Origin: Odoribacter sp.
GTDB taxonomy: Bacteria > Bacteroidota > Bacteroidia > Bacteroidales > Prolixibacteraceae
Length of the DNA stretch: 64,000 bases
Assembly (NCBI GenBank): GCA_013824715.1
Contig: PNOH01000020.1
Coordinates: 1-64,000 of the forward strand
Direction: 5' to 3'
Part shown: positions 11,118 to 64,000 of the stretch, piece after piece
How the letters are laid out: every line of letters starts with the position of its first letter
How positions within the stretch are numbered: position 1 is the first letter of the stretch
Notes under the pieces: model-generated
Databases searched by the model: none
Seen by the model: the letters and a program-made list of their open reading frames with translations, nothing else
What the model was told of the DNA's origin: nothing
Translations under genes and position numbers: made by a program

Positions 11118-11153
11118 TCAGGTACGAATAATAGTGAATTAGTCGTCCCTCAG

Positions 11154-43105: not shown

Positions 43106-43660
43106 ATGAAAAAAAACTTCGAATTGGAAATCGTTTTGCTCCAATTGGCAGAGGACAATCCCGCTGCGATCGAAGAACTTTTTAATTATTATTACCCCCG
43201 GCTATACCATTTTTCCAAAACATTTTTGAAACTGGACGAAGGGATTGAAGATATTTTGCAGGAGGTTTTTATTAAAATCTGGCAAAACCGAAACAGGATT
43301 AAAACAACCGCTACGTTTAATGCATTCATTTTCACCATTACCCGGAACCTTCTGATAAACGAACTCCGCAGCCGCCTGAACAATCAAAAAGTGAAGGATA
43401 AAGTTGGGAAATTGGCTATTCCAGTCGAATACTCTTTTATAGAACAATCTGAATACCACGATTTGAAAGAAAAGGTTGACCGGGCCATCAGCGATCTGCC
43501 GGTCCGCCAGAAAGAAATTTTTAATTTAAGTCGAATGAGTGGTTATTCACACAAAGAAATTGCCGAAAAACTGAATATTACTACAAAAGCCGTTGAGTTT
43601 CATATTGCCAAGGCTACCGTATTATTAAGGAAAAAGTTGTTGAACTTTGAATTGGCCTAG
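43106..43660 (+). CDS. ECF RNA polymerase sigma factor (FecI-like)
   Basis: A 184-residue sigma-70 factor of the ECF type, with region 2 at about residues 20-90 (YYPRLYHFSKTFLK, then EDILQEVFIKIWQNR) and region 4 at about 125-178 (LPVRQKEIFNLSRMSGYSHKEIAEKL). It lies directly in front of a FecR-type anti-sigma gene and a SusC gene carrying an STN domain, the standard trans-envelope signalling trio of Bacteroidota. It is expected to direct transcription of the susC/susD unit, and perhaps the catabolic genes, once ligand binds SusC. Confidence 0.94.
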   Translation: MKKNFELEIVLLQLAEDNPAAIEELFNYYYPRLYHFSKTFLKLDEGIEDILQEVFIKIWQNRNRIKTTATFNAFIFTITRNLLINELRSRLNNQKVKDKVGKLAIPVEYSFIEQSEYHDLKEKVDRAISDLPVRQKEIFNLSRMSGYSHKEIAEKLNITTKAVEFHIAKATVLLRKKLLNFELA

Positions 43661-43748
43661 ATTAATATTTTTTTCTGTATAAATAATTTATGGTGTTTCC
43701 GCTAGGGATGAGTTTCGTTGTTGTGTATTAACTATACAAAACAAAGAG

Positions 43749-44747: not shown

Positions 44748-44889
44748 ATGAATTGCCTATGAAAATGATTTAAGCCATCAAAAAAAAGAGGCAGAAACCA
44801 CTCCAGTCGGTCAAACTTAATGGATTTCGAACCTCTCCTTAAAATTGATTAATCACACGAATTTAGTAGTTAACCAAAAAAACAAAACT

Positions 44890-47800
44890 ATGAAAAAAAA
44901 CTGGTTCCATCGGGGCAGTAAGCCTTTGATGGGTGAAATTCTGAGAAAAATGAAAATAACGATCTTCCTGATTTGTATTTCAGTGCTTAGCAGTTTTGCT
45001 ATCGAGAACTATGCACAGTCAACCAAACTGACCCTCGATCTGGAAAATACCTCGATAAGGGGAATTTTAAATAGCATCGAAGGCCAAAGCGAATTTAAGT
45101 TCTTCTACAGCAGTAAGGTTGATGTTGACCGAAAAGCCACTGTTGTTCAAAAGAACAAAAAAGTATTCGACATCCTCGACGAGCTTTTTGATGGGACCGG
45201 GATTAAGTATGAAGTCTATGGTCGGCAGATTGCCTTGCTTGCCGGTGGCGAAAGCTTCGCAAATCCGGAGCAGCTTGTGGCTGAACAACAAAAAACGGTT
45301 TCGGGTACGATAACCGATGCCACTACCGGAGAAGCGCTCGTTGGAGTTACCGTTTATATTCCCAATACGAATACGGGTGTGATCAGCGATGCAAATGGCA
45401 AATTTAGCCTCAATGCCCCGGCTGTAAGTGCCTCTTTGGTTTTCTCGTTTGTAGGATACGTAAAAGCAACAATCGTCTATACCGGGCAGACAACCATTGA
45501 TGTCAAATTAGTTCCGGATGTGGAAGCTCTCGACGAGGTTGTAGTAACCGCTCTGGGGATTAAGAAATCAAGCAAAAGCCTGGGATACGCTACTGCAAAT
45601 GTAAATTCTGACCAGCTTACCGTAAACCGTACCCCGAACCTGATGAATTCCCTTTCAGGAAAAATGGCAGGGGTGAGTATTTCAGGATTAGGCACCGGCC
45701 CGGCCGGAACCTCTAAAATCCGCATCCGTGGCCAATCTTCTATTTCAGGACAAAATAATCCGCTGATCGTTGTCAACGGCGTTCCGATTGATAATACCAA
45801 CTTTGGAACTAATCCGGGAAATGCCGCATCTGACAATTCAATTGGTGTAAGGGGCGGAGGAAATACTTCTGACGGGGGCGACGGGCTTTCGAGCATAAAT
45901 CCTGACGATATAGAAAGTATGACCGTTTTGAAAGGTGCTGCAGCCTCTGCATTGTATGGCTCGCGTGCCAAGGATGGTGTAATCATGATTACCACCAAAA
46001 CAAAGGGAACCCATAAGGGACTTGGCATCACCTATAATATGAATTATACGAACGACGCCCCCATTGATTATACCGACTACCAGTATGTATATGGTCAGGG
46101 CGAAAATGGGGTACGTCCGACTACACCCAACCCTACTTCCGGACAATGGTCGTTTGGCGAAAAATTTGTACCTGGAATGACTCAGGTACTCTACAATAAC
46201 CTTACTGTTCCTTATGAACCACAACGGGGAATCATCAATCAATTTTTCAGGAATGGACAAAACCTGACCAACACCATTTCGCTCTCGACCAGCAGTGACA
46301 AAGGAGGAATGAACCTTTCGATTGCCAACATGAGCAGCGATGGTATTGTGCCGAACAACTCCTATAAAAGAAATACCCTTAACCTTGGGTTCAGCTATAA
46401 CTTAACCGACAAGCTGAGTTTTCAGGGGAACATGAATTACTCTTTCGAGAATAATCAAAATCCGCCAAACATTGCGAATCAGGACAACTCCATACCAACC
46501 GCCCTTTACGCGATGGCCAATTCAATGCCTTTGGATGTACTGAAAGCCAACGCTCACGACGCTTTGGGCAACGAATATGTCTATTCCCGGTTCAGGAATA
46601 GGACCAATCCATATTTCACCTTATCCGACCAGTTTCAAAAAATCCGCCGTGACCGCATGTTTGGCAATATCTCGATGAAATATGATGTTACCAAATGGCT
46701 CTTTGTACAAGGTCGTATCGGGCAGGATTTCTGGTCGCGTGATCAGGAATACAACAACTTTCCAACCGGACAGGCTTCATTGGCGCCAGCTCCGGCAGGT
46801 TTTGTCAATGGTGTTTTCACTCAGGAATCACGAAGGTTCAGGGAAACAAATGCCGACTTCATGATTTCCGGAACAAAAGAATTTGGTGATTTCGAAGTTA
46901 ATGTTACCGCCGGGGGCAACCAGATGAAGAGACGCTCTGACCTGAACAGTGTCCAGGTGACTGACTTCATTGTCCGCGGACTTTACACGGTTCAGAACGG
47001 AAGGTCAAAAGATCCGATATACGATCTTTCCGAACGTGCAGTAAACTCGCTGTATGGTTCTACCCAAATATCCTTTAAGAACTTCCTTTATTTAAACGGA
47101 ACAGTGCGAAACGACTGGTTCTCAACCTTGTCTCCAGCCAACCGGAGCATTTTGTATCCATCGGTTTCGGCCAGCTATATTTTTTCTGAAACTTTTGGCA
47201 CCTTGCCCAAATGGCTGAACTTTGGAAAAATCAGGGCCGCTTTTGCCCAGGTTGGTAGCGATACCGATGTTCCTCCCTATTCAAATTTGTTGTTTTACGG
47301 AGTCAATTCAAATCTAATGGGAAATCCATCAGGCGCTTTGCAACCCGTTGGAGGCGCTTCCGGAAGTACAGTGCCTAATCCCAATTTAAGGCCGATGAGT
47401 ACATCCGAAACAGAGTTAGGCCTTGAAATGAAAATGTTTGATAACCGTTTAAGCCTTGATCTGTCGGTGTATCAGAAGATAACAACCGACCAGATTGTTC
47501 AGGCCCAGATATCCGATGCTTCAGGATTTGTTGACACCCGCATTAACAGCGGTAAAAGCGAAAATAAGGGAATTGAATTGATGGTGAACGTGGTGCCTGT
47601 GAAAACTTCAGATTTCCAATGGGACTTTACTTTCGCCGGAGCTTACAACATTACTAAAGTGTTGAGCCTTCTAACAAATAAACCCGGCGAACGGATCACC
47701 GTAGGAACGCATGTTTTCAATGGTGAAGTCAGGCAAATCGTAGGAGAGGAAATGGGGCAGATCGCCGGTTTTGGTTACAAAAGGGATGCAAGTGGCCAGC

Positions 47801-48387
47801 AAATTTTCGGATCAAACGGAATCCCTCTCCGGACCGCTGATTTAATAAATTATGGAAGTGCATTACCTAAATGGACCGGAGGTTTTACCAATGCTTTCAA
47901 TTACAAAGGCGTTTCATTCTCTTTCCTGATTGACTTTAAATTGGGAAACAAGATGCTTTCAGGAACTAACTTTAATGCCACCCGTCACGGACTGCATAAA
48001 ATGACATTGGTTGGACGGGAAGGCGGAGTTATAGGCAAAGGAGTTGATGCCAATGGAAATGTCAATACGGTTGTTGCCCCGGTACAGGACTATTGGTCTG
48101 TAGTGAGGTCGCTGGCATTGGTTGAACCTGTTGTTTATAACGGCGGTTATTGGAAACTACGTCAAATAACGGTAGGATATGACTTCTCTAAATTTATACC
48201 TTCCAGTTTCCTGATTAAAGGCATGACGCTTAGCCTGACTGCTAACAATGTGCTGATGTTGAAGAAATGGATCGACAATATTGATCCTGAAAGCTTTGGA
48301 TACAGTTCGGATAACCTGATAGGAATGGAATCCCCGGGACTTCCTACCTCCAGGAGCCTGGGTTTCAATTTTAATGTTAAATTTTAA
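44890..48387 (+). CDS. SusC/RagA-family TonB-linked outer-membrane transporter with STN signalling domain
   Basis: A 1165-residue SusC-type transporter. The signal peptide comes after a charged start (M-K-K-N-W). The next parts are an STN domain (about residues 55-110), a CarboxypepD_reg-like domain (about 132-215, GTITDATTGEALVGVTVYI), the TonB-box-like DEVVVTALGIKK, a plug domain (about 225-350, LYGSRAKDGVIMITTK) and a large barrel ending FNFNVKF. The STN domain marks it as a regulator of the ECF/FecR pair just upstream. The frame is open 15 codons before the chosen ATG. It works with the SusD encoded 12 bp downstream to bring an oligomer or small acidic ligand into the periplasm. Confidence 0.96.
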   Translation: MKKNWFHRGSKPLMGEILRKMKITIFLICISVLSSFAIENYAQSTKLTLDLENTSIRGILNSIEGQSEFKFFYSSKVDVDRKATVVQKNKKVFDILDELFDGTGIKYEVYGRQIALLAGGESFANPEQLVAEQQKTVSGTITDATTGEALVGVTVYIPNTNTGVISDANGKFSLNAPAVSASLVFSFVGYVKATIVYTGQTTIDVKLVPDVEALDEVVVTALGIKKSSKSLGYATANVNSDQLTVNRTPNLMNSLSGKMAGVSISGLGTGPAGTSKIRIRGQSSISGQNNPLIVVNGVPIDNTNFGTNPGNAASDNSIGVRGGGNTSDGGDGLSSINPDDIESMTVLKGAAASALYGSRAKDGVIMITTKTKGTHKGLGITYNMNYTNDAPIDYTDYQYVYGQGENGVRPTTPNPTSGQWSFGEKFVPGMTQVLYNNLTVPYEPQRGIINQFFRNGQNLTNTISLSTSSDKGGMNLSIANMSSDGIVPNNSYKRNTLNLGFSYNLTDKLSFQGNMNYSFENNQNPPNIANQDNSIPTALYAMANSMPLDVLKANAHDALGNEYVYSRFRNRTNPYFTLSDQFQKIRRDRMFGNISMKYDVTKWLFVQGRIGQDFWSRDQEYNNFPTGQASLAPAPAGFVNGVFTQESRRFRETNADFMISGTKEFGDFEVNVTAGGNQMKRRSDLNSVQVTDFIVRGLYTVQNGRSKDPIYDLSERAVNSLYGSTQISFKNFLYLNGTVRNDWFSTLSPANRSILYPSVSASYIFSETFGTLPKWLNFGKIRAAFAQVGSDTDVPPYSNLLFYGVNSNLMGNPSGALQPVGGASGSTVPNPNLRPMSTSETELGLEMKMFDNRLSLDLSVYQKITTDQIVQAQISDASGFVDTRINSGKSENKGIELMVNVVPVKTSDFQWDFTFAGAYNITKVLSLLTNKPGERITVGTHVFNGEVRQIVGEEMGQIAGFGYKRDASGQQIFGSNGIPLRTADLINYGSALPKWTGGFTNAFNYKGVSFSFLIDFKLGNKMLSGTNFNATRHGLHKMTLVGREGGVIGKGVDANGNVNTVVAPVQDYWSVVRSLALVEPVVYNGGYWKLRQITVGYDFSKFIPSSFLIKGMTLSLTANNVLMLKKWIDNIDPESFGYSSDNLIGMESPGLPTSRSLGFNFNVKF

Positions 48388-48399
48388 TACGACCGAAAC

Positions 48400-49911
48400 A
48401 TGAAAAAGATAGTTAACCTTTGTGTACTGGCGCTGTTTCTTACAATGATCACTTCCTGCGAAGAAGGCTTCGACGAATTGAATAAGAGTAAAACCAGTGC
48501 CACCGGAATTGACCCTGCATTTATTTTAAACAATGCAGTCATTAACTCCTCAGTTGTAACTCTGATTTATGAGATTGGAATTGTCCAGCAAATTATTTCA
48601 CCCAATTCGGGCGTATTGACCGGTGCAAACTTCAATCAGGACAACCGTGCCACTACTGATGATAACTGGCAAAGCTATTACCGGAATGTGATTAAACACA
48701 CCAAAGATATCATTGCACGCACCAAAGACGACCCTGCCAGAAGCAACATGATGAACATGGCCAGGATATTGCAGGCTTACGCATTTTTAATACTGACCGA
48801 TACCTATGGAGATATTCCATATACCGATGGTGGCGTGGGGTATTATTCGCAGGTATTTTTTCCCAAATATGAGACACAACAGTCCATCTATCCGAAAATA
48901 ATTAAGGAACTGAGTGAAGCGTCCGCTGCACTTAACGCCTCCGGAAAGATAGAAACAGCGGATGTTTTATTTGGAGGGGATGTAGCCAAATGGAAAAAAT
49001 TCGGGTATTCGTTAATGCTTCGGGCAGGTATGAGATTAAGCGCGGTTGATGCAGCTCAGGCCCAGTCAGTAGTAAGCGCCGCTTTTACTGGCGGTGTCAT
49101 TACTTCGAATGCAGACAATGCCTTTGTCAGACATGACGCCAACTATAGAAATCCAATCAGCAATACACTGAATTCTACCGAGGCTGCCAATTATTATCTG
49201 ACCAAGCCATTTGTTGACGAGCTCAAAAACACCAGCGATCCACGGCTTGTTTCCATTGCTGTTCGTTATAAAGGCGCTACATCCGGAACAGCCCAGGTTC
49301 CTGCGGCTGCAAGCATCGTAGCTGCCGATCAAATTGGATTGCCAATGGGAAAGGATAATACTACCGCAACCGTTGCGGCCAAAGCTGATGGCTTAGTCAG
49401 TTTTTATGAATACAGCCAGGTTGACCGTAATCGCATGGCAAAATTAACTGCCCCGATGCTAATGGTAACAGCCAGTCAAACAAACCTTCTACTTGCTGAG
49501 GCTCGTTTTAGGGGGTGGATTACATCAGGAACAGCCGCACAATATTTTGCCGATGGTATAAAAGCCAACATGGATCAAATGGCCTCATTTGATGCAAAAT
49601 GTGCGGTTCTCGCCGCCGACAGGGATGTTTATCTTGCAGCCAATCCACTCAACGCAGGAACTGAATTAAAACAAATTAACACCCAATACTGGATTTCCTC
49701 TTTTCTGAACGGGCAGGAAGCTTTTGCCAATTACAGGCGTAGCGGATTTCCTGATTTGGCGCCAAATCCATATCCCGGAAAGGAAGTGGCATTCATTAAC
49801 AGGCTTACCTATCCCAATTCAGAGATTTCGGTGAATACGGTAAATGTGAATGCAGCGATTGCCATCATGGGACCAGATAATCTGGGAACCAAAGTATGGT
49901 GGGATAAATAA
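48400..49911 (+). CDS. SusD/RagB-family ligand-binding lipoprotein (SusD_2 type)
   Basis: A 503-residue surface lipoprotein: signal ending ALFLTMITSC, then the SusD_2 start FDELNKSKTSATGIDPAFILNNA (in parts) and the TPR-like helical fold of the family. The lid function over SusC is established for the family. Being SusD_2 rather than the classical starch type says little about the ligand. It is the last gene before a strong terminator. Confidence 0.94.
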   Translation: MKKIVNLCVLALFLTMITSCEEGFDELNKSKTSATGIDPAFILNNAVINSSVVTLIYEIGIVQQIISPNSGVLTGANFNQDNRATTDDNWQSYYRNVIKHTKDIIARTKDDPARSNMMNMARILQAYAFLILTDTYGDIPYTDGGVGYYSQVFFPKYETQQSIYPKIIKELSEASAALNASGKIETADVLFGGDVAKWKKFGYSLMLRAGMRLSAVDAAQAQSVVSAAFTGGVITSNADNAFVRHDANYRNPISNTLNSTEAANYYLTKPFVDELKNTSDPRLVSIAVRYKGATSGTAQVPAAASIVAADQIGLPMGKDNTTATVAAKADGLVSFYEYSQVDRNRMAKLTAPMLMVTASQTNLLLAEARFRGWITSGTAAQYFADGIKANMDQMASFDAKCAVLAADRDVYLAANPLNAGTELKQINTQYWISSFLNGQEAFANYRRSGFPDLAPNPYPGKEVAFINRLTYPNSEISVNTVNVNAAIAIMGPDNLGTKVWWDK

Positions 49912-49924
49912 ATCTGACAAGGAT

Positions 49925-49954
49925 AGTACCCGGGAAACCGGGTACTAATTTTTT
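49925..49954 (+). terminator. Rho-independent terminator of the susC-susD operon
   Basis: AGTACCCGG and CCGGGTACT form a perfect 9-bp stem with a GAAA tetraloop, followed by TAA and six Ts. It lies 14 bp after the susD stop codon. Confidence 0.9.
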
Positions 49955-50155: not shown

Positions 50156-51100
50156 ATGAAAATTATTTTACCATTAATTCTTTCCTTTTTTTTACTGACC
50201 TCGTTTAGTCAGGCGCAACAAATTTCAAAAGAAGAACTTCTTTTTCTCACTCCTGAATGGAAGGGTGAGCGTTTTCCTGATGGCCGTCCGAAAGTACCGG
50301 ATGAAATTCTTAAACGGATGAAATTAGTCACCCTCGAAGAAGCATGGGCGGTGTTGAAGGGGGCAAACTATAAACACGCTTACGACGATGGCTGGATGTG
50401 CATCAACCCCGACAGCGTACTCGTCGGCAGGGCGCTTACAGCGACTTTTATGCCTGGCAGGCCCGATGTACAACGGGCAATTGACAAAAAAGGGCACGAA
50501 AAGGACGGACGGATTAAATCACAAAATTCGTGGCCCATTGATATGCTGGTAAAGGGCGATGTTTATGTGGTGGATCAGTTTGGAGCCCACGAAGACGGCC
50601 CGACCGTTGGCGACAACCTGGGTAATTCAATCTTTGCCAAAACCGGGAACGGCATTGTGTATGACGGAGCTGTTCGCGACATCAATGGCTTGAAGGAATT
50701 GGGTTCGTTCACTTCGTTTATCCGAAGTTACCATCCCTCTCACCACTTAAACGATCCCGCCGGAGAATTAAATACTACACTGATAGGCATCAACAAACCA
50801 ACCCGCATCGGGAAGGCAATGGTGCTTCCGGGAGATGTTGTTTTAGGCAGGGACGGCGGAGTAATCTTCATTCCACCTCACTTAGCCGAGCAGGTTGTTA
50901 AAACATCCGAGATAGTCAGGCTTCGCGACATGTTCGGGCATGAGCGCCTACGGGAGCAAAAATATACACCCGGGCAGATTGATTCCCGTTGGTCCGATGA
51001 AATTGAAAAGGATTTTTCAAACTGGCTCAACGATCACATCAACGAATTACCGGTTCCGAAAGAACAAATAAAGGAATTGCTAAAAACACGAACATGGTAA
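50156..51100 (+). CDS. Exported RraA/HMG-aldolase-fold protein 1
   Basis: A 314-residue protein: Sec signal peptide (IILPLILSFFLLTSFSQAQ) and an RraA-fold domain. The aldolase motif is intact: GDNLGNSIFAK, then D-G-A-V-R-D, supplying the Arg-Asp pair that HMG/CHA aldolases use for substrate and metal binding, which the RNase regulator RraA lacks. PGDVVLGRDGGVIFIP follows. Such enzymes split 4-hydroxy-2-oxo acids to pyruvate and an aldehyde or acid. A C-terminal extension (MFGHERLREQKY to the end) is longer than usual. It shares a LTPEWKGERF start with the paralogue at 52433. Substrate unknown. Confidence 0.85.
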   Translation: MKIILPLILSFFLLTSFSQAQQISKEELLFLTPEWKGERFPDGRPKVPDEILKRMKLVTLEEAWAVLKGANYKHAYDDGWMCINPDSVLVGRALTATFMPGRPDVQRAIDKKGHEKDGRIKSQNSWPIDMLVKGDVYVVDQFGAHEDGPTVGDNLGNSIFAKTGNGIVYDGAVRDINGLKELGSFTSFIRSYHPSHHLNDPAGELNTTLIGINKPTRIGKAMVLPGDVVLGRDGGVIFIPPHLAEQVVKTSEIVRLRDMFGHERLREQKYTPGQIDSRWSDEIEKDFSNWLNDHINELPVPKEQIKELLKTRTW

Positions 51101-51124
51101 ATTAACCTAAACCAATTCAACCAA

Positions 51125-52402
51125 ATGACAAATTCAAGACGAAGCTTTCTGACCAAAAGTGCAATTACCGCTGCATTAGGATTTACCTCCTTTTCTGATT
51201 TCGGAATGGGTCTGGAAAAAGCGGTGGAAAATACTCCTTTATCTTCAAGTCCGAGTGATTTGAAAATAACAGATATAAAATGTGGCTACATTCGTAACGG
51301 ACACAGCCTGTTTGTTAAAATACACACCAATCAGGGAATATGGGGCTGTGGCGAAGGCGTTGATGCGACTCCCGGAACCTATCATTTGGTGAAAATGTTT
51401 GGTGAAAGGATCAAAGGAAAAAGCCCGCTCAATGTTCACCGTCTCTTTGAAGATATCCGCAAATCGGGATTTTTCGAAGGCGCGCAATCGGGCATGTATG
51501 TGGCGGTACTTTCTGCTGTGGAAAGCGCTTTGTGGGACCTTACCGGAAAGGCATTGGGCTTACCAGTTTACCAGCTTCTGGGCGGAAAATTCAGGGATAA
51601 AATCCGGGTTTATTGCGATACAGCTCTTTACCGTGCAGATTCACCGACTCCTGACAAGTTTGCGGAATCGGCAATGAGGGCGGTTAATATGGGCTTCAAT
51701 GCCGTTAAGTTTGATGTTGATGAAGCGAATGACCCCAACAAGTATGATACCTATAACTGGACCGCCAGTCCGGCTGAGTTGGACCGGATGTATAACCAGA
51801 TTGCGGCAGTTCGAAAAGCCGTTGGCCCCAAGATTGATATTTGTGTGGATATGCACGGCCGTTACGATGCGGTAACCGGACATCAGGCAGCCAAACGGTT
51901 TGAACCTTTAAACCTGATGTGGCTGGAAGAGCCCATTCCCGCGGAAAACGTGGAAGCGTATCTCGACATCAAAACCTCGACAAGCACACCAATCTGTGCC
52001 GGGGAAAATGTTTATCTCGCCCACGGATTCAGGCGAATGCTCGAAATTGGGGCGGTTGATATTATTATGCCCGATTTGCAAAAGGCGGGCGGTTTAGGCG
52101 AAGGCCAGCGAATGGCCAACCTTGCCAATCTGTACTATGTTCCTTTCGCGCCCCACATGGTGGCATCTTATTTGGGCGCAATGGGCTCCTGTCATGTCTG
52201 TGCTTCAGTACCGAACTTCATGATCCTGGAGTGGCAAATCTACTTTCATACCGATCCGATGTTCAAAGAAATAGTCACTTTCGATGGACCAATGGTAACC
52301 GATGGGTTCATAAAACTGTCTGAAAAACCAGGTGTTGGAGTTGAAATTAATGAAGAAGGAATGCGCAAATATGCGACTCCAGGAGTTCCGTTTTTTGTGT
52401 AA
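51125..52402 (+). CDS. Exported enolase-superfamily dehydratase 1 (galactonate-dehydratase-like)
   Basis: A 425-residue mandelate-racemase/muconate-lactonizing-type enzyme. A Tat-like signal (SRRSFLTKSAITAALGF) precedes the two-domain enolase fold. Metal ligands are D242 (VDMHGRY), E268 (WLEEP) and E294 (CAGEN), and the base H344 is in FAPHMVAS. The D-x-H-G-R motif with H244 is like that of D-galactonate dehydratase, so dehydration of a sugar acid to a 2-keto-3-deoxy acid is the best guess. A usual KxK base pair is replaced by VKFDVD. Predicted to act in the periplasm. Confidence 0.87.
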   Translation: MTNSRRSFLTKSAITAALGFTSFSDFGMGLEKAVENTPLSSSPSDLKITDIKCGYIRNGHSLFVKIHTNQGIWGCGEGVDATPGTYHLVKMFGERIKGKSPLNVHRLFEDIRKSGFFEGAQSGMYVAVLSAVESALWDLTGKALGLPVYQLLGGKFRDKIRVYCDTALYRADSPTPDKFAESAMRAVNMGFNAVKFDVDEANDPNKYDTYNWTASPAELDRMYNQIAAVRKAVGPKIDICVDMHGRYDAVTGHQAAKRFEPLNLMWLEEPIPAENVEAYLDIKTSTSTPICAGENVYLAHGFRRMLEIGAVDIIMPDLQKAGGLGEGQRMANLANLYYVPFAPHMVASYLGAMGSCHVCASVPNFMILEWQIYFHTDPMFKEIVTFDGPMVTDGFIKLSEKPGVGVEINEEGMRKYATPGVPFFV

Positions 52403-52432
52403 TAAATTCATAACTACTTAAATTTTTATATC

Positions 52433-53365
52433 ATGATCAAAAAAGGAATACTTATCTCAGCAATTTTTCTGGGAAGTTTTATGGCCAATGCCCAACGCGT
52501 GGGTTCATCCCCCGAATACATTAAAGCTTTAACTCCGGAATGGAAGGGAGAGCGTTTTGCTGACGGAAGGCCAAAAGTACCAGATGCAATTCTCGAAAGA
52601 TTAAAGAATATTTCCATCGAAGAGGCATGGGGCGTATTGCGCAACAAAGGCTTCCAAAACCAGTACGAAGGCGACTGGACGATCATTAATCCTGAAGAAG
52701 CAATGACCGGAAGGGTGGTTACTGCCCAGTACATGCCTCTCAGGCCCGACCTTGAAAAACAGGTAAAAGAACAGGGTAAAATTGAAAACAGGGCTCAGAA
52801 GGGCGGAACCAACTCCTGGCCAATTGATGTGCTCACAACCGGAGATGTTTATGTGGCCGACAGCTACGGCAAAATAGCCGATGGAACGCTAATCGGCGAT
52901 AACCTGGGAAATTCAATTTATGCCAAATCACAAAGAGGTGTAATCTTTTATGGTTCTGTCAGGGATCAGGAAGGTCTGGAGGAAATCAAAGGTTTTAACG
53001 GATGGATCAAAGGAGCCGATCCATCATACATTATGCAGATGATGCTCACTTCCATCAACGCGCCAATCCGGGTTGGACGTGCCACCGTGCTGCCGGGCGA
53101 TGTAGTTCTGGCAAAAAAATTTGGAGTCATTTTTATTCCCGCTTATCTTGTCGAAGATTTGGTATTGACTTCCGAAGTAACAGCACTTCGTGACGAGTTC
53201 GGGCATCTGCGCCTGAGGGAAAAGAAATATCTGGCCGGAGAAATTGACAGCGAATGGTCCGAAGAAATCAAAAAAGACTTCCTGAACTGGCTGAATAATT
53301 ACCCCGGAAAATTGCCGATGTCTAGAACAGAATTGGACAATTATCTGAAAGAAAGGAATTACTAA
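52433..53365 (+). CDS. Exported RraA/HMG-aldolase-fold protein 2
   Basis: A 310-residue paralogue of the gene at 50156, with a Sec signal (GILISAIFLGSFMANAQ). It keeps LTPEWKGERFADGRPKVPD, GDNLGNSIYAK, the R-D pair (GSVRDQEG), PGDVVLAKKFGVIFIP and the extended C-terminus. It differs near the mouth of the site (FNGWIKGADPSYIMQM), where the other has extra His residues (RSYHPSHHLNDP), so the two may cleave different compounds. It begins the second of two RraA plus enolase-superfamily modules. Confidence 0.85.
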   Translation: MIKKGILISAIFLGSFMANAQRVGSSPEYIKALTPEWKGERFADGRPKVPDAILERLKNISIEEAWGVLRNKGFQNQYEGDWTIINPEEAMTGRVVTAQYMPLRPDLEKQVKEQGKIENRAQKGGTNSWPIDVLTTGDVYVADSYGKIADGTLIGDNLGNSIYAKSQRGVIFYGSVRDQEGLEEIKGFNGWIKGADPSYIMQMMLTSINAPIRVGRATVLPGDVVLAKKFGVIFIPAYLVEDLVLTSEVTALRDEFGHLRLREKKYLAGEIDSEWSEEIKKDFLNWLNNYPGKLPMSRTELDNYLKERNY

Positions 53366-53377
53366 AACTTATAAACG

Positions 53378-54862
53378 ATGAAAAGCATAATCCAACAAAT
53401 AACAGATCAAAACAAAAAGCTTGAAAGCGTTGAAAAAGATGCCGTCAAAGCTGAAATTGAAAACCCTGCAACAAGTAATAACCGCCGGAATTTCCTGAAG
53501 AAAACTGCTCTGGGCGGTATCGCGTTGGGCGGTCTGATGAAATTATCCATCGAAGACACCATCGCGCAGACTACTTCAAGTGTGTCACGATCTTCCAGTC
53601 CTTCTGAATTAAAGATCACGGATATGCGTTATGCTCTGACAGGCGTTCTTGGTCAAACGGCCATTATCCGGATTGATACCAATCAGGGGATTTCCGGGCT
53701 TGGAGAAGTACGGGACGGCGCTGATGTTCGTTACGCCCTGATGCTGAAAAGCCGGATATTAGGGTTAAACCCATGTAATGTGGAAATGATCTTTAAAATC
53801 ATTAAGCAGTTTGGTGGACAGGCCCGGCAGGCTGGCGGTGTTTGCGCTGTTGAAATGGCGCTTTGGGACATCGTCGGAAAAGCATACGGAGTTCCAGCCT
53901 GGCAATTATTGGGCGGAAGATACCGCAATAGCGTCAGGTTATATGCCGATACCCCTGAAGGTACATCGCATGATGATCAAACAGCAAAAATTAAGTATCG
54001 TATCGAGGAACAGGGTTACACCTGGCTGAAGATGGATCTTTCCATCAATTCGCTGAAGGATATTCCGGGCGCTTTGGTCAATCATGAATTCTGGGATGGA
54101 GCCTCAGGGCAATACGACCTTCGTAGTTATATGGGTTATGGAAACACAAAACACCCCTTTACCCAGATTCAAATTACGGATAAAGGCCTGGAGGAAATGG
54201 TTAAAATGGTGGAACATACCCGTGAGCACATTGGCTGGGATATTCCTATTTCGACTGACCATTACGGGCATTTCGATTTAAACAATGGTATCCGTTTAGG
54301 CCGAGCAATAGAAAAATTCAGGCTGGCCTGGATGGAAGATGTGGTTCCATGGGAATATACCGACCAGTGGAAAACCTTGTCTGACGCCCTTGAAACCCCC
54401 ATGCTTACCGGCGAAGATATTTACCTGCTGCAAAACTTTAAACCGCTCATCGACATCCATGCCGTTGATATCATTCACCCTGATTTAGCATCTTCTGGCG
54501 GACTTTTAGAGACTAAAAGAATAGGCGATTATGCCGAAGAACACGGCGTAGCCATGGCCATGCATCAGGCAGGCACACCGGTTTCGTTTATGGCCAGCGT
54601 TCATTGTGCCGCCGCTACCCAGAACTTTTTAGCGCTCGAACATCATTCGGTAGATCTGCCCTGGTGGGAAAGCCTGGTGAAAATGACCGATGGCAAACCA
54701 ATCATTAAAAAAGGATTTGCACCGGTTCCTGAATCACCTGGGTTAGGGATTGAATTGAATGAAGATGTCGTAAAAGAACATTTGCACGCGAAAGATAAAA
54801 GCTTTTTTGCCCCAACCGATGAATGGAACGAAAAGCGTTCGCACGACCGGACCTGGAGCTAA
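53378..54862 (+). CDS. Exported enolase-superfamily enzyme 2
   Basis: A 494-residue mandelate-racemase-type enzyme. A Tat motif (NNRRNFLKKTALGGIALGG, RR at 36-37) comes unusually late, after a hydrophilic 35-residue lead. Metal ligands are D294 (STDHYGHF), E320 (WMEDVVPW) and E346 (TGEDIY), and H396 (MHQAGTP) is the likely base. TDHYGHF and WMED differ from the first paralogue, and a 40-residue insertion around 230-270 is unique to it, so it should act on a different substrate or step. It starts 12 bp after the second RraA gene. Confidence 0.85.
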   Translation: MKSIIQQITDQNKKLESVEKDAVKAEIENPATSNNRRNFLKKTALGGIALGGLMKLSIEDTIAQTTSSVSRSSSPSELKITDMRYALTGVLGQTAIIRIDTNQGISGLGEVRDGADVRYALMLKSRILGLNPCNVEMIFKIIKQFGGQARQAGGVCAVEMALWDIVGKAYGVPAWQLLGGRYRNSVRLYADTPEGTSHDDQTAKIKYRIEEQGYTWLKMDLSINSLKDIPGALVNHEFWDGASGQYDLRSYMGYGNTKHPFTQIQITDKGLEEMVKMVEHTREHIGWDIPISTDHYGHFDLNNGIRLGRAIEKFRLAWMEDVVPWEYTDQWKTLSDALETPMLTGEDIYLLQNFKPLIDIHAVDIIHPDLASSGGLLETKRIGDYAEEHGVAMAMHQAGTPVSFMASVHCAAATQNFLALEHHSVDLPWWESLVKMTDGKPIIKKGFAPVPESPGLGIELNEDVVKEHLHAKDKSFFAPTDEWNEKRSHDRTWS

Positions 54863-54919
54863 TCGCCCAAAGTTTTATTAACCATCAATAAATTTAAATT
54901 TAACCAAAATCAATTTACT

Positions 54920-55384
54920 ATGAAAACAGAAAGAAGATCCGTAATAAAAAAAATCCTGGGTTCTGTGGTAGGTTTAGCCGGACTTGGATTGGCCGCCAAT
55001 GCAAAAACTATTTCTACTGAAGAGAAGGAAGCGCTGAATGTAACCAGCTTTCAGGATGTACCCTTGTTTTCGGGTTCCACTAAATTCGGGAACCTTGTGT
55101 TTATTGCCGGAAAAGGGGCTCACGTTGCGCCATTTGAGATCAAAGCGCATACCGAAATCGTACTCAAAGAATTGGAGAAAGAACTGATCAAAGCAGGCTC
55201 CTCAATGGAGAAGGTTTTAAAGGTGGGTGTATTTCTGAATGATATAGCCGACTATCAGGGAATGAATGAAGTGTATAGGGGCCGTTTTGGTATGAAACCA
55301 CCCGTTCGCACTACGGTAGCTGTCGCCAAAGGAGGCGTACCGGGCGATTCGCTGGTAGAGATGGACTGTATCGCCTATATCTAA
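54920..55384 (+). CDS. Exported RidA-family enamine/imine deaminase
   Basis: A 154-residue RidA (YjgF) protein with a Tat-like signal (ERRSVIKKILGSVVGLAGLGL). The core has the conserved Arg in PPVRTTVAVA and the acidic residue in VEMDCIAYI that position the imine and the water in RidA. Family members hydrolyse reactive enamines/imines released by PLP enzymes. That fits the SelA-like PLP enzyme encoded 18 bp downstream. An exported RidA is unusual, as the family is normally cytoplasmic. Confidence 0.88.
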   Translation: MKTERRSVIKKILGSVVGLAGLGLAANAKTISTEEKEALNVTSFQDVPLFSGSTKFGNLVFIAGKGAHVAPFEIKAHTEIVLKELEKELIKAGSSMEKVLKVGVFLNDIADYQGMNEVYRGRFGMKPPVRTTVAVAKGGVPGDSLVEMDCIAYI

Positions 55385-55402
55385 TTAAAGGAAAGGGAGC
55401 AA

Positions 55403-56626
55403 ATGATGAAACGCAGGGACATTATTAAGAGTTTTACCCTACTCCCAATTGCCGGTGGAGTTTTGGGAGGAGTTCTCCCATCAAAGTCTCTTTTTGCTGC
55501 TCCCCGTTCGCCAAAAAGGGATTTATTTAAGGAATTGGGAGTTACCCCCCTGATTAATGCGGGAGTGACTATGACCTTTCTATCCGGCTCGCTGATGATG
55601 CCGGAGGTGTTGGAGGCCATCAATTCCACGGCCCACGATTTTGCCAATATGTACGAGCTTCAGGATAAAGTGGGGGCGAAGATTGCAGAGATGCTGCATT
55701 GTGAAGCAGCGATGGTCACCTCGGGCGCTTCCTGTGCAATGGTGTTAGGGACAGCGGCAGCCATAACCGGAACAGATGAGGAAAAGATCAGGCAAATCCC
55801 TAATCTTCCCGAACCACGCCCTGAAGTCATCATGCAAAAAAGCCATCGCTACCTGTTCGATCAGGCTGTGAGCACTACAGGAGCAAAGATTGTAGAGGTT
55901 GAAGGCCCTGCGGATATGGACAGGGCCATCAATGGCAATACGGTGATGGCCCTGTTCTTCAATGCGGCAGAAAAGTCAAGTATTACCCATGAGGAGTTTT
56001 TAACTGTCGCAAAACGGCATCAGATACCCACTTTTATTGATGCGGCAGCAGATGTGCCGCCGGTAGAAAATCTTTTTAAGTTCCAGAAGATGGGCTTTGA
56101 CCTGATTACTTTTTCAGGAGGGAAGATGATTCGCGGGCCCCAAAGCGCCGGATTATTGTTCGGACGGAAAGACCTGATCGAAGCCGCGAGACTCAATTAC
56201 AGTCCCAATGAAGCCCCGATAGGCAGGCCGATGAAAGTGAACAAAGAAGAAATGTTTGGCATGTATGCAGCTTTGATGTCATACCTGGAGCGGGATCATC
56301 AGAAAGAGTGGCAGGATTGGCTCGACCGGACTAAGCGGATAAAATCGCGGATAGAAACCATTTCAGGAGTAAAAGGGGAAACCTATATTGAACCGGGGCC
56401 TGCGAATGCCTTTCCCAGCCTCCATGTAACCTGGGATCAGGAAAAGGTAAAAATAACACCTCAGGATTTGCTCGCAGCCCTCAGGAACGGAACCCCCGGT
56501 ATTGTAGCCAACGTGGTGGACAAGGGAGCCGACAAGGTGCTGAGTGTTGGTGTGGTATTGTTAAAACCCGAACAGGTTGAAGTTGTAGCCCGTCGGTTAA
56601 AAGAGGTTTTACAGCAGGCCATTTAA
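55403..56626 (+). CDS. Exported SelA-like PLP-dependent enzyme
   Basis: A 407-residue fold-type I PLP enzyme of the SelA-like/DgaE group. An N-terminal signal with KRRDIIKSFTLLPIAGG precedes it. Key residues are PLP lysine K241 (FSGGKMIRGPQSAG), D213 binding the pyridine N (FIDAAADVPP), and VTSGASCAMVLG for the phosphate. Relatives include D-glucosaminate-6-phosphate ammonia-lyase. Beta-elimination of ammonia from an amino sugar acid or hydroxy amino acid is a fair inference. Phosphorylated substrates are unlikely in the periplasm, so the substrate would be a free acid. The ORF has two adjacent ATGs. Confidence 0.83.
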   Translation: MMKRRDIIKSFTLLPIAGGVLGGVLPSKSLFAAPRSPKRDLFKELGVTPLINAGVTMTFLSGSLMMPEVLEAINSTAHDFANMYELQDKVGAKIAEMLHCEAAMVTSGASCAMVLGTAAAITGTDEEKIRQIPNLPEPRPEVIMQKSHRYLFDQAVSTTGAKIVEVEGPADMDRAINGNTVMALFFNAAEKSSITHEEFLTVAKRHQIPTFIDAAADVPPVENLFKFQKMGFDLITFSGGKMIRGPQSAGLLFGRKDLIEAARLNYSPNEAPIGRPMKVNKEEMFGMYAALMSYLERDHQKEWQDWLDRTKRIKSRIETISGVKGETYIEPGPANAFPSLHVTWDQEKVKITPQDLLAALRNGTPGIVANVVDKGADKVLSVGVVLLKPEQVEVVARRLKEVLQQAI

Positions 56627-56636
56627 AAATTCATCA

Positions 56637-57899
56637 ATGAGAAAAAATATTTTAATTCTTTTTTGTGCACTATCACTTACTACTATTACAGTTCAATCGC
56701 AAACCTATAGCATCGTTATTAAGGACGGACATGTAATTGACCCAAAAAACAACATTGATCAGGTCGTGGATGTCGCTATCAATGATGGCAAAATCGTTCT
56801 GGTAGCAAAAAATATTGATGCGAAGAATGCCATTCAGGTTGTAAATGCCAGGGATAGGATTGTCACGCCCGGATTAATAGACATACACACTCATGTTTTT
56901 TGGGGCGTCGAGCCTGATCATCAATATGAAAATGGAAATCTTGCCATTCAGCCGGATGGATTTACGTTTCGAAATGGTGTTACAACCATTGTGGATGCGG
57001 GAAGTTCAGGATGGCGTACTTTTCCCACTTTTAAAGCACAGACCATTGATCAATCCAAAACCCGTGTGCTTGCATTTCTAAATATTGTAGGCGAAGGAAT
57101 GCGCGAAGGTTATGAGCAGAATGCAAATGATATGGATCCAAAAATGACTGCTCTTATCGCCAGGAAATATAAAGACCTTATCGTTGGGATTAAACTGGCT
57201 CATTTTGAAGGTCACGACTGGACTCCGGTTGACCGGGCTGTAGAAGCTGGCAATCAGGCAGGCGGCATTCCGGTTATGGTTGATTTCGGCGAAAGTAACC
57301 CTCCTCTTCCGATCGAAGAATTATTTATGAAACATCTTCGTCCGGGAGATATCTTCACTCACTGTTTTGCACAGTTAAAACCCAGGGAGTATCTGGTAGA
57401 TTTAAAAACCAATAAACTAAAGCCATTTGTTTGGGAGGCCCGTAAAAAGGGAATTATATTCGATGTGGGATATGGCGGAAGAAGTTTTTCATACTCACAG
57501 GCAATCCCTGCAATAAATGAAGGATTTTACCCTGATTTTATCAGTACCGATTTACATGTAGGCAGTATGAATGGCGCGATGAAGGATATGCTTACCACCA
57601 TGTCAAAATTTTTGGTAATGGGTATGGATCTGAAAAGTGTTATTACAGCAAGTACCTGGAATCCAGCCAGGGAAATAAGGCACGAAGAATTGGGAACCCT
57701 TTCGGTTGGGTCAGGTGCAGATGTTGCCATACTGAATATCAGGAAGGGGAAATTCGGACTGTTTGATTATACCGGATATAAAATTGAGGCCGACCAAAAA
57801 CTTGAATGTGAAATGACCATACGGGATGGCAAAATCGTTTACGATTTGAATGGCATCGCAAATCCAATTGTAGCTCCACTGAAATTGAACACTTATTAG
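56637..57899 (+). CDS. Exported amidohydrolase, EF_0837/deacetylase-like
   Basis: A 420-residue amidohydrolase with a Sec signal (ILILFCALSLTTITVQSQ). Metal ligands are visible: H84 and H86 (DIHTHVFWG), K186 to be carboxylated (VGIKLAHF), H242 (THCFAQ) and D305 (STDLHVG). The family groups with the EF_0837/Atu3266 deacetylases, known to act on N- or O-acyl small acids. The gene pairs with a SelA-like gene as in enterobacterial and enterococcal relatives, so it may unmask the amine or hydroxyl before the PLP step. Starts 10 bp after the SelA-like gene. Confidence 0.83.
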   Translation: MRKNILILFCALSLTTITVQSQTYSIVIKDGHVIDPKNNIDQVVDVAINDGKIVLVAKNIDAKNAIQVVNARDRIVTPGLIDIHTHVFWGVEPDHQYENGNLAIQPDGFTFRNGVTTIVDAGSSGWRTFPTFKAQTIDQSKTRVLAFLNIVGEGMREGYEQNANDMDPKMTALIARKYKDLIVGIKLAHFEGHDWTPVDRAVEAGNQAGGIPVMVDFGESNPPLPIEELFMKHLRPGDIFTHCFAQLKPREYLVDLKTNKLKPFVWEARKKGIIFDVGYGGRSFSYSQAIPAINEGFYPDFISTDLHVGSMNGAMKDMLTTMSKFLVMGMDLKSVITASTWNPAREIRHEELGTLSVGSGADVAILNIRKGKFGLFDYTGYKIEADQKLECEMTIRDGKIVYDLNGIANPIVAPLKLNTY

Positions 57900-57918
57900 T
57901 CTCATATATCTTCAAACG

Positions 57919-59193
57919 ATGAAAAAAATCAACTTCTACAAGATTGCCCTTGGTTTTGCCAGCCTGTTTTTGATCATCTCTCTTATCATGGCCTTAACCG
58001 GAAGTGCAGCTATTACAGGGCCTTTACTTATTTCTTTTTTCATTTTACTTGCTATTGGAGTTAGAGGATTCACTGCAGTTAAAGGGCTCTCCTATACCAT
58101 CTGGATTTTTACTGCCGTAACCGCTGCCATGTTTTATCCTGAATATTTTACTTCGTTTGGCGACTTCAAGTTTAAAATACTGATCGTTCCGCTTTTGCAG
58201 ATTATCATGTTTGGGATGGGATCGCAAATGAGCCTGGACGATTTTACCGGGGTAATCAAAATGCCTAAAGGGGTAATTATCGGTGTTGGCGCTCATTATA
58301 TCATCATGCCTTTGGTTGCATTTGCCATTTCCCGGATATTTAATTTTCCTCCTGAAATAGCGGCAGGGATAATATTGATTGGATGCGTTCCCAGCGGGCT
58401 GGCTTCAAACGTAATGTCGTATATCGCTCATGCCAACCTTGCTTTGGCGGTTACAATCGGGGCCATTTCAACGCTTATTTCGCCTTTTGTCACACCATTA
58501 TTGATGAAGTTGCTGGGTGGACAGTTAATAGAGGTCAATTTCTGGAGCATGATGCTGGATATTTTAAACATGATCATTCTTCCGATTGTGGCAGGTTTCA
58601 TTTTCAATCTCTTCAATGAAGGAAAGGAAAAGAGACGGGCAAAAATTATTCAGCTTAGCGTTTTCTTTTTGATTATACTGCTCACCAATTTGGTTTATTT
58701 GAAAGCAAAACATTCGGATGTTTCAGGGTTTCTGCTGGCTTTTGGCAAATCGTTGGGCTGGTTCTTTTTTCTGCCCATGATCCTGGCTTTGTTGCTACGT
58801 CTTTTCCTGAAAGGCAACAAAAAACTGATGGGGCAAATCCTTTCATTTTTATCAATGGCCGGAATTGCAGTCATCATCACTATAATTACTGCCGCAGGTC
58901 GCGACAGCCTGCTCAAGGTTGGAGCCCTGCTTTTGGTAACAAGCTTCCTGCACAATATATCAGGATATACGTTGGGTTATGGTGTTTCATGGCTGTTTGG
59001 AATGCCTGAAAAAGACCGCCGGACTGTGGCCTTTGAAGTAGGCATGCAAAATGGTGGATTGGCATCGGGTTTAGCGCTTCAGATGGGAAAAATTGCAACC
59101 GTCGGATTGGCGCCTGCCATATTTGGCCCGTTAATGAATGTGACCGGTTCGGCCCTGGCAAGTTGGTGGCGGAGCAGACCGCCGAAAGAATAA
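57919..59193 (+). CDS. BASS-type (bile acid:sodium symporter-like) transporter
   Basis: A 424-residue polytopic membrane protein. About ten helices include GMGSQMSLDDF, the G-C-V-P-S-G-L-A-S-N-V-M crossover with the two-fold symmetry partner GMQNGGLASGLALQM near the end, and long charged loops. These are the BASS-fold unwound-helix motifs. BASS carriers co-transport sodium with small organic anions such as pyruvate, 2-keto-3-deoxygluconate, pantoate or bile acids. Ending a run of exported enzymes, it most simply imports the organic acid they release; this is inference. Confidence 0.88.
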   Translation: MKKINFYKIALGFASLFLIISLIMALTGSAAITGPLLISFFILLAIGVRGFTAVKGLSYTIWIFTAVTAAMFYPEYFTSFGDFKFKILIVPLLQIIMFGMGSQMSLDDFTGVIKMPKGVIIGVGAHYIIMPLVAFAISRIFNFPPEIAAGIILIGCVPSGLASNVMSYIAHANLALAVTIGAISTLISPFVTPLLMKLLGGQLIEVNFWSMMLDILNMIILPIVAGFIFNLFNEGKEKRRAKIIQLSVFFLIILLTNLVYLKAKHSDVSGFLLAFGKSLGWFFFLPMILALLLRLFLKGNKKLMGQILSFLSMAGIAVIITIITAAGRDSLLKVGALLLVTSFLHNISGYTLGYGVSWLFGMPEKDRRTVAFEVGMQNGGLASGLALQMGKIATVGLAPAIFGPLMNVTGSALASWWRSRPPKE

Positions 59194-60755: not shown

Positions 60756-63069
<2,314 letters not shown>

Positions 63070-63143
63070 TTATTTACTATTAAATTATTTACTATTTACC
63101 ATTTTGATTTAAGATAACTCATTGATAAAATGGGCTTTTAAAG

Positions 63144-63177
63144 TCTCCCCCTTGGGGGAGATTTAGAGGGGGCTTAA
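63144..63177. repeat. Palindromic G/C-run repeat overlapping the end of the NeuB-like gene
   Basis: TCTCCCCC and GGGGGAGA form a perfect 18-bp palindrome at 63144-63161. It is followed by tttagagggggcttaac. On the minus strand this supplies the last codons (S-P-L) and the TAA stop of the NeuB-like gene. It resembles a common Bacteroidota intergenic element. Confidence 0.7.
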
Positions 63178-64000
63178 CATTTCAGGATAAATAATTTCGT
63201 TGGCCGGAATTTCAATCAGTGCCTTTTTCCCGACTATCTTATCTTTCTCGGCCCATTTATAACCATTGCCCGGACTGAGCATGTGCAAATCGTTTTCATT
63301 AATTTGCTCACCAGCGCCAATGTTACGTAATGTAGCGATGGAACGTTCCAGTTTGATACGCGTTCCTTCTACTTTTTTGTTGATAAAAACACCATATTCT
63401 CCAATGGCATATTCAGTATTCCGGATATCACGCATCATTCGCCAGATTCCTTCCGGTTCGAGCGAGCCGCGATGATCGGTGCCTTTCATGTTCCGGTCGA
63501 GTGTGATGTGCTTTTCGATGATTTCTGCGCCCATTCCTACCGCAACGGCAGGCATCAGGATTCCGATGGAATGATCGGAATAACCAATCGTAAATTGAGG
63601 GTAATTATCTTTCAGAAATTGGATACTCAGTAAATTGATGTTCTGGTATTCTGAAGGATATTGCGACAAACAATGCAGAATGCTGATACTTGAATGGTAT
63701 TTGGTAATGATTTCGAGGGCGTCATCCAATTCCTTTTTGCCTGTCATTCCGGTTGAAAGGATGATCGGGATTTTTGTTTCGGCCATGGCTTCCAATAGCG
63801 GAAGGTTAGTCAGGTCGCGCGAAGCCACTTTCAACCGGTCGGGGGTGAACAGGCGTAACATCGAAATGCAACCTTTGGCACAAAGGGTTTCAACAAAATC
63901 AAGCCCTTTCGATTTGGCGTAGCTGAACACTTCAAAATGCTGTTCGTCGTTTAGTTCCAGAAAAGCCCGGTGTTCGCCGTAGGTTTTGCCAAATGAATTT
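63163..64000 (-). CDS. NeuB-family nonulosonic acid synthase (5' end outside the window)
   Basis: The C-terminal 278 codons of a sialic/legionaminic acid synthase. The reading frame stays open to the window edge, and translation of the last 70 bases gives the family's GKTYGEHRAFLEL, so the gene starts beyond 64000. The TIM-barrel domain (STGMTG, HCLSQYPSE, GYSDHS, EKHITLDRNMKGTDH) is followed by the antifreeze-like SAF domain (about the last 65 residues). It condenses an N-acetylhexosamine-type sugar with phosphoenolpyruvate. Whether the product is neuraminic, legionaminic or pseudaminic acid cannot be settled here. It pairs with the KdsC-like gene. Confidence 0.9.
   Translation of the reverse strand, partial: NSFGKTYGEHRAFLELNDEQHFEVFSYAKSKGLDFVETLCAKGCISMLRLFTPDRLKVASRDLTNLPLLEAMAETKIPIILSTGMTGKKELDDALEIITKYHSSISILHCLSQYPSEYQNINLLSIQFLKDNYPQFTIGYSDHSIGILMPAVAVGMGAEIIEKHITLDRNMKGTDHRGSLEPEGIWRMMRDIRNTEYAIGEYGVFINKKVEGTRIKLERSIATLRNIGAGEQINENDLHMLSPGNGYKWAEKDKIVGKKALIEIPANEIIYPEMLSPL

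Follow-up and report, generated by a model that had tools for sequence, protein, structure and literature searches.

Sugar-acid dehydration, pyridoxal phosphate (PLP)-dependent deamination and aldol cleavage are regarded as cytoplasmic reactions. Here we analyse a 64,000-nucleotide stretch of Odoribacter sp. DNA (contig PNOH01000020.1, C20 in our numbering of the 4.6-Mb host genome, whose relatives place it in the Bacteroidota; hereafter 'the window'), in which eight plus-strand genes at 50156-59193 encode seven enzymes with predicted export signals and one carrier. We consider it moderately probable that these genes form a periplasmic sugar-acid catabolic operon, in which parallel entry reactions would yield 2-keto-3-deoxy acids, RraA-family enzymes would act on these acids, and a BASS-family carrier would import what results; from gene families, export signals, conserved residues and co-occurrence we infer which substrates are used, what RraA catalyses and what BASS carries. 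If the conserved set is truly exported, then some Bacteroidota take sugar acids apart before these cross the inner membrane. Such a set would give a role to families annotated just as RraA, RidA, selenocysteine synthase or dihydroorotase, and our reading would name testable cargoes for the BASS carrier.

The open reading frames (ORFs) are separated by gaps of 24, 30, 12, 57, 18, 10 and 19 nt, and Pfam and NCBIfam place them in the families that an earlier note on this DNA, made from the sequence alone, had named for eight close-packed genes ending in a BASS carrier:

50156-51100 (+), RraA1; Sec signal; D-x20-R-D motif; PF03737, 60 bits
51125-52402 (+), MR1, enolase superfamily, galactonate-dehydratase-like; Tat signal; PF13378, 199 bits; TIGR01409 above cut-off
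52433-53365 (+), RraA2; Sec signal; D-x20-R-D motif; PF03737, 58 bits
53378-54862 (+), MR2, enolase superfamily; Tat signal after an extension of ~33 residues; PF13378, 161 bits
54920-55384 (+), RidA family; Tat signal by heuristic; PF01042, 65 bits
55403-56626 (+), SelA/DgaE-like PLP enzyme, PLP Lys241; Tat signal by heuristic; TIGR01437, 193 bits (cut-off 385)
56637-57899 (+), PRK09237-type amidohydrolase/deacetylase; Sec signal; NF006689, 457 bits (cut-off 371)
57919-59193 (+), BASS-family inner-membrane carrier; PF01758, 130 bits; PanS, 218 bits (below the cut-off of 400)

Predicted export signals in the operon and its relatives

The earlier note had also held that all seven enzymes carry export signals and that two neighbouring enzymes, an FAH-family protein (its KdaD-like enzyme; 40596) and an aldehyde dehydrogenase (ALDH; 41442), do not. 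Our home-made heuristic caller, which makes motif calls for Sec, twin-arginine (Tat) and lipobox signals, bears this out: Sec signals are called in RraA1, RraA2 and the amidohydrolase, Tat signals in MR1, MR2, RidA and the SelA-like enzyme, and none in FAH or ALDH. Independent support from hidden Markov models (HMMs) is partial. MR1 (20.0 bits) and MR2 (22.7 bits) both exceed the cut-off of the Tat model TIGR01409 (16.7), the N-terminus of RidA has no HMM match for Tat, and that of the SelA-like enzyme has only a sub-threshold match to another Tat model. TatC is encoded in the host genome.

Relatives were collected by scanning a species-genome collection with an alignment of the SelA-like protein: at least 595 stretches matched, at least 522 relatives were obtained, and the best 80 loci were kept. 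These are not independent genomes (some share one assembly), and their flanks extend at most 10 kb. Adding 11 loci centred on MR1 and 12 on MR2 gave 103 module loci, whose neighbours were identified by tblastn. With ORFs cut by a locus end dropped and SelA relatives limited to those of at least 44% identity, predicted export in the SelA loci extends to 55/57 RidA proteins (52 Tat), 92/102 SelA (84 Tat), 65/76 amidohydrolases (59 Sec) and 28/32 RraA (27 Sec); all ten SelA relatives below 44% identity, counted apart, are called exported too. Similar calls were made in the MR-centred loci, for MR1 (9/11, Tat) and MR2 (14/15, Tat) and for the RraA proteins that accompany MR1 (8/10) and MR2 (12/13).

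The caller was checked against proteins from the same neighbourhoods: it reported export for 35/43 SusC and 29/36 SusD proteins, and for none of 53 regulators (ECF sigma factors, 0/26; FecR, 0/27). Unassigned ORFs of the SelA loci are called exported in 208 of 525 cases, or 40%. Seven predicted signals among seven enzymes of one operon exceed this background, and the conservation of predicted signals across relatives is the stronger evidence. Furthermore, it is the predicted route, Sec or Tat, and not just predicted export, that is conserved: a pair of arginines occurs within the first 45 residues of 54/56 RidA and 97/102 SelA proteins, as compared to 6/76 amidohydrolases and 0/27 RraA2.

Recurring modules

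Among 395 genomes of the phylum, SelA relatives (E<=1e-40) occur in 8, host included, relatives of MR1 (E<=1e-100) in 13 and those of MR2 in 15; the gene set is thus uncommon yet spread across Bacteroidota, with related sets recurring in scattered members. The best 80 SelA loci include Mucilaginibacter, Pedobacter, Puia, Flagellimonas, Sinomicrobium, Fodinibius, Cyclobacterium and some metagenome-assembled genomes of Acidobacteria. Their flanks hold an amidohydrolase in 56 loci, RidA in 52, SusC in 32, RraA in 31, a glucose/sorbosone-dehydrogenase domain fused to cytochrome c (GSDH-cytochrome c) in 27, BASS in 25 and an SMP-30 lactonase in 21. Amidohydrolase and RidA occur together in 47 of the 80, which upholds the earlier proposal that deacylation, ammonia loss and imine hydrolysis belong together as a unit. 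In the 51 SelA loci of at least 19 kb the counts are 38 for amidohydrolase, 37 for RidA, 24 for RraA and 21 for BASS. A frequent order in Mucilaginibacter is ECF-FecR-SusC-SusD-RidA-SelA-amidohydrolase-RraA-BASS (loci L036, L037, L046, L051 and L083); the first of these loci is from a cultured species, Mucilaginibacter lappiensis, which has the core set from RidA to BASS.

The enolase-superfamily enzymes keep different company. RraA stands beside MR1 in 11/11 loci and beside MR2 in 11/12 (the twelfth lies at a contig start), BASS accompanies each in six loci, and L164 has RraA2-MR2-RraA1-MR1 in a row. A close MR relative is found in only one of the 80 SelA loci (L107: MR2, 77%, with RraA2 and BASS adjoining), while another (L105) has a distant, 23% relative of MR1 from the enolase superfamily. 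Because MR-RraA and SelA modules rarely share a locus, we conclude that the operon combines three modules, RidA-SelA-amidohydrolase, RraA1-MR1 and RraA2-MR2, that are mostly found apart. In L135, between RraA1-MR1 and BASS, one ORF (10554-11216, +) resembles RraA2 at its start and MR2 at its end, as if an RraA2-MR2 pair had collapsed and left it as a remnant.

FAH and ALDH relatives are present in 0/103 module loci, a count to be read with the caveat that the SelA flanks, of 10 kb or less, are shorter than the 12-kb spacing seen in the window and could have missed them; we set both aside as members of the system. When the unassigned ORFs of the 80 SelA loci were clustered, no shared clue to a substrate emerged (the largest cluster is represented in 7/80 loci). 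Examples of the GSDH-cytochrome c gene beside the SelA module are L022 7739-9475, and L026 5209-6960 and 12061-14088.

Active sites, a candidate pathway and its alternatives

Substrates cannot be read from annotation, because the SelA-like enzyme, MR1 and MR2 all score below the cut-offs of the named equivalogs (for the galactonate dehydratase model PRK14017, MR1 has 255 and MR2 178 of 311 bits). MR1 keeps D183, H185, E209, E235, D258, H285 and E310 of DgoD; of the DgoD positions checked, only 184, an unconserved one, differs. MR2 keeps the metal ligands and His285 of DgoD. Both RraA proteins have the D-x20-R-D motif, from residue 153 in RraA1 and 156 in RraA2, which is typical of class II pyruvate aldolases of the RraA family. 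The host genome has a third RraA-like gene (L032 9087-10013, -, on contig C12), which is 37% identical to RraA1 and is called Sec; two genes with Tat-type N-termini lie near it.

Arg105 and Glu120, important residues of E. coli RidA, are kept in 57/57 and 55/57 relatives, and Tyr17 is replaced by Phe in 53/57. The alignment with E. coli RidA, with its fully retained Arg105, led us to reject the notion of an exported RidA without the catalytic Arg. A second RidA-fold family (PF14588), bearing a signal or lipobox, stands beside SelA in 12/80 loci (for example L022 7040-7597, L028 8527-9108 and L026 11516-12049). As for the amidohydrolase, it and the two relatives tested all pass the PRK09237 deacetylase model (NF006689). 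Its relatives in the Protein Data Bank (PDB) are led by 8je0, 2ics, 2ogj and 8wzy, although the entry titles of 8je0 and 8wzy say only 'a novel amidohydrolase'; among the 41 PDB sequences that match it, an alignment that does not extend to OngB (see below), no chain is named D-aminoacylase. All 23 sequences compared share H84, H86, K186, H242 and D305. Asp216 is likewise invariant in 23 exported homologues, at what is likely a metal-ligand place, where 2ics has His.

For the SelA-like enzyme, NCBIfam ranks the families of DgaE, the D-glucosaminate-6-phosphate ammonia-lyase, first. Residues were counted in 93 sequences (92 relatives plus the window protein, leaving out those below 44% identity or outside 360-470 amino acids). 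The PLP lysine (position 213 of the DgaE chain; written Lys-217 in PMC9529869) is K in 93/93, and Arg226, near the carboxylate, is either R (65/93) or K (28/93). Arg301 and Arg332, placed at the phosphate by a docking model (PMC9529869), are matched by a basic residue in 3/93 and 2/93, respectively. Another difference is that His162/163 of DgaE, the latter being its proton donor, are absent from the window protein. An H163A mutant of DgaE releases an enamine (PMC9529869), with which a RidA acting after the SelA-like enzyme would fit. Longer Tat-bearing SelA variants (~560 amino acids, 30-36% identical to that of the window) also occur in SelA clusters (L026 9735-11456, L030 8669-10348).

We hypothesize the following pathway. 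SusC and SusD, encoded upstream, would bring oxidised sugars or oligosaccharides into the periplasm, where the amidohydrolase would remove the acyl group from an N-acyl-2-amino-2-deoxy-aldonate, the likeliest substrate being N-acetyl-D-glucosaminate (GlcNAc1A) or an epimer; the SelA-like enzyme may then eliminate water and ammonia from the free amino-aldonate, leaving a 2-keto-3-deoxy-aldonate, and RidA would hydrolyse the enamine or imine released. In parallel, MR1 and MR2 would reach the same type of 2-keto-3-deoxy acid by dehydrating ordinary aldonates. The two RraA enzymes would act on this acid, most likely splitting it in a retro-aldol reaction into pyruvate and an aldehyde, and BASS would carry a keto acid into the cytoplasm: pyruvate, or an uncleaved acid of the 2-keto-3-deoxygluconate (KDG) type for KDG kinase (KdgK) and 2-keto-3-deoxy-6-phosphogluconate (KDPG) aldolase. 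Modules that also hold GSDH-cytochrome c and lactonase genes might make an aldonolactone from the sugar and open it in place. The earlier note had arranged these reactions as a single linear path, with dehydration after ammonia loss; that order is probably wrong, and parallel entry is the more likely arrangement, because RraA-MR pairs recur without SelA and because lyases of the DgaE type take off the C3 hydroxyl themselves (PMC9529869). A fuller version is a tentative proposal that we hold at somewhat less than an even prospect: a complete, non-phosphorylating, Entner-Doudoroff-type pathway in the periplasm, serving both aldonates and N-acetyl-amino-aldonates with a Tat-exported lyase and RraA cleavage, from which BASS would import only a small keto acid such as pyruvate, and which would be spread over many Bacteroidota genera in a small share of species.

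Several observations weigh against the proposed pathway. Amidohydrolase, RidA, RraA and BASS are all present in just 16/80 SelA loci, and the RidA-amidohydrolase pair is missing from the fetched flank in 33/80 (some contigs being short); from such incomplete sets it follows that the enzymes can work apart. The SelA-like protein scores below the cut-offs of the DgaE-family models, with 143 of 600 bits for NF047797 and 193 of 385, half of the cut-off, for TIGR01437. Its apparent loss of the modelled phosphate residues is also less clear-cut once alignment shifts are allowed: a basic residue lies within two columns of Arg301 in 33/93 sequences and of Arg332 in 10/93, and the third phosphate residue, Arg346, falls in a gap and is not alignable, and 74/93 sequences have a basic residue no more than two columns away. 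Moreover, 18/93 relatives have a His at some point in the His162/163 stretch. MR2 has Tyr at the position of His185, there is no lactonase or GSDH-cytochrome gene in the window operon, and the RraA family has non-aldolase members (PMC8563752). As to a source of substrate, GH18 chitinase is absent from the host genome (it is present in 11/13 relatives), and an AA10 lytic polysaccharide monooxygenase (LPMO) was found in 0/14 genomes (host plus 13 relatives). Bearing in mind this lack of LPMO_10 in host and relatives alike and of GH18 in the host, we rejected self-made oxidised chitin as the source; with AA10 at 0/14, only analogy connects the operon to oxidised chitin.

Alternative explanations bear on separate parts of the pathway. 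The best fold match of the SelA-like enzyme (structure model, mean pLDDT 82) is Cap15 (8t7j), a PLP enzyme that uses O2, which by both sequence and fold stands slightly ahead of DgaE (7lc0); this is a further point against a DgaE-like lyase, and might indicate an O2-dependent oxidase in place of an ammonia-lyase. We think this very improbable, given that DgaE families rank first in NCBIfam and that RidA, the expected partner of an enamine-releasing eliminase, is found beside SelA in 52/80 loci. It is somewhat less improbable, but still doubtful, that the amidohydrolase-SelA-RidA part handles N-acyl-D-amino acids (N-acyl-D-serine or -threonine, for example) and not amino sugar acids: the deaminase OngC acts on D-serine and D-threonine too (PMC9537276), and relatives of the SelA fold use varied substrates, but the module's association with GSDH-cytochrome, SMP-30 lactonase, RraA and SusC/D speaks for sugars, as do the aldonate-dehydratase-like enzymes of the window.

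Two further alternatives concern the later steps. The BASS carrier could import intact KDG-type acids for a cytoplasmic KdgK and KDPG aldolase, leaving RraA with a minor or other role. A PfkB kinase that resembles KDG kinases adjoins RraA2-MR2-BASS in L107, a like kinase and a KDPG aldolase (PRK07114, above cut-off) lie near MR2-BASS in L170 (both kinases score below KDG-kinase cut-offs), and other contigs of the host genome encode a 70% relative of the KdgK-like protein and a KDPG-type aldolase; there is no KdgK-like gene among the eight. Yet RraA accompanies MR in 22/23 loci and is therefore unlikely to be dispensable, and KdgK relatives occur in only 2/103 neighbourhoods, a count that also tells against the uncleaved-acid branch of our own pathway; on balance this explanation is unlikely, albeit a serious contender. 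Finally, RraA1 and RraA2 could resemble FlDet of Flavobacterium, an RraA-family KDGR dehydratase/decarboxylase (PMC8563752), and produce alpha-ketoglutarate semialdehyde (alpha-KGSA) or a related acid to be imported and then oxidised by the neighbouring ALDH, which is encoded 7 kb upstream in the same orientation and has sub-threshold NCBIfam similarity to alpha-KGSA dehydrogenase. We rate this as quite unlikely: the absence of FAH and ALDH relatives from the module loci, qualified as above by flank length, argues against it, and FlDet uses a hexarate (PMC8563752), whereas MR1 looks like an aldonate dehydratase.

Upstream genes and comparison with known pathways

Upstream of the eight genes, and on the same strand, lies a set for regulation and uptake at 43106-49911, identified by Pfam, and followed by a terminator-like stem:

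43106-43660 (+), ECF sigma factor; Sigma70_r2/r4_2
43749-44747 (+), FecR anti-sigma factor; FecR, FecR_C
44845-48387 (+), SusC-like TonB-dependent transporter; STN, CarbopepD_reg_2, Plug
48400-49911 (+), SusD-like lipoprotein; SusD-like_2, 261 bits; lipobox by heuristic
49924-49947 (+), terminator-like stem downstream of susD; 10 pairs, 4-nt loop, T run

The listed start of SusC is TTG, and a later Met is probably the real one. The stem falls within the 244 nt that separate susD from the first of the eight genes, which suggests that these eight may be transcribed separately; we only suggest this because a terminator scan of the region found fewer sites (6) than the mean of its shuffles (10.9), and the stem is no more than a consensus match. 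Elsewhere in the window, a GFO/IDH/MocA oxidoreductase with a Sec-type signal (39288-40397, -) lies upstream of the FAH/ALDH pair, and a NeuB-family synthase with an adjoining HAD phosphatase (62548-63930, -) probably belongs to nonulosonic-acid glycan synthesis.

The closest functional parallel is the ong pathway of Pseudoalteromonas prydzensis, in which periplasmic OngA precedes conversion of GlcNAc1A to GlcN1A by OngB and to KDG by the fold-type III enzyme OngC, followed by KdgK; OngD, a RidA-family protein, is essential there, in a role that the paper leaves unknown (PMC9537276). With ong, the window set shares TonB-dependent uptake, an amidohydrolase-superfamily deacetylase, a PLP deaminase and a RidA gene (PMC9537276; PMC12017989). 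In ong, however, OngB and OngC are predicted to be cytoplasmic, import is by an SSS transporter and KdgK is in the cluster (PMC9537276); the window operon instead has export signals, BASS, RraA and MR. Furthermore, OngB belongs to the subtype V deacetylases (PMC12017989) and OngC to fold type III (PMC9537276), whereas the window has a PRK09237-type amidohydrolase and a SelA/DgaE fold. The full ong cluster is reported from Gammaproteobacteria and one Betaproteobacterium (PMC9537276). To judge from sequence, the window set would work like the ong pathway, yet it departs from it in deacetylase type, PLP fold and predicted location.

The D-glucosaminate pathway of Salmonella (DgaE/DGL, DgaF) offers the same DgaE-like fold, PLP Lys and carboxylate Arg, but it handles a substrate phosphorylated by the phosphotransferase system, in the cytoplasm, with the aldolase DgaF (PMC9529869); in the window, two of the three modelled phosphate Arg are missing, there is a Tat signal, and in the gene set RraA stands in the aldolase's place. 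A GlcNAc route predicted for the chitinotrophic Natrarchaeobius clusters a DgaE-like lyase, a galactonate dehydratase, a glucose dehydrogenase and a RutC-family gene; in that prediction ABC import precedes catabolism, and the section consulted does not mention RraA, BASS or SusC/D (PMC12343721). FlDet, from Flavobacterium sp. UMI-01, is another RraA-family enzyme of the Bacteroidota that acts on a 2-keto-3-deoxy sugar acid, as a dehydratase/decarboxylase on hexarate, and the text of its paper contains neither 'signal peptide' nor 'periplasm' (PMC8563752).

The earlier note knew of no described pathway of this composition. That statement holds for location and composition within the literature searched, in which we found no description of an exported version (most subscription journals lie outside its coverage); it does not hold for the chemistry, as deacetylation and deamination to KDG have been published (PMC9537276). 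The chemistry is known from the cytoplasmic GlcNAc1A pathway and from Salmonella DgaE.

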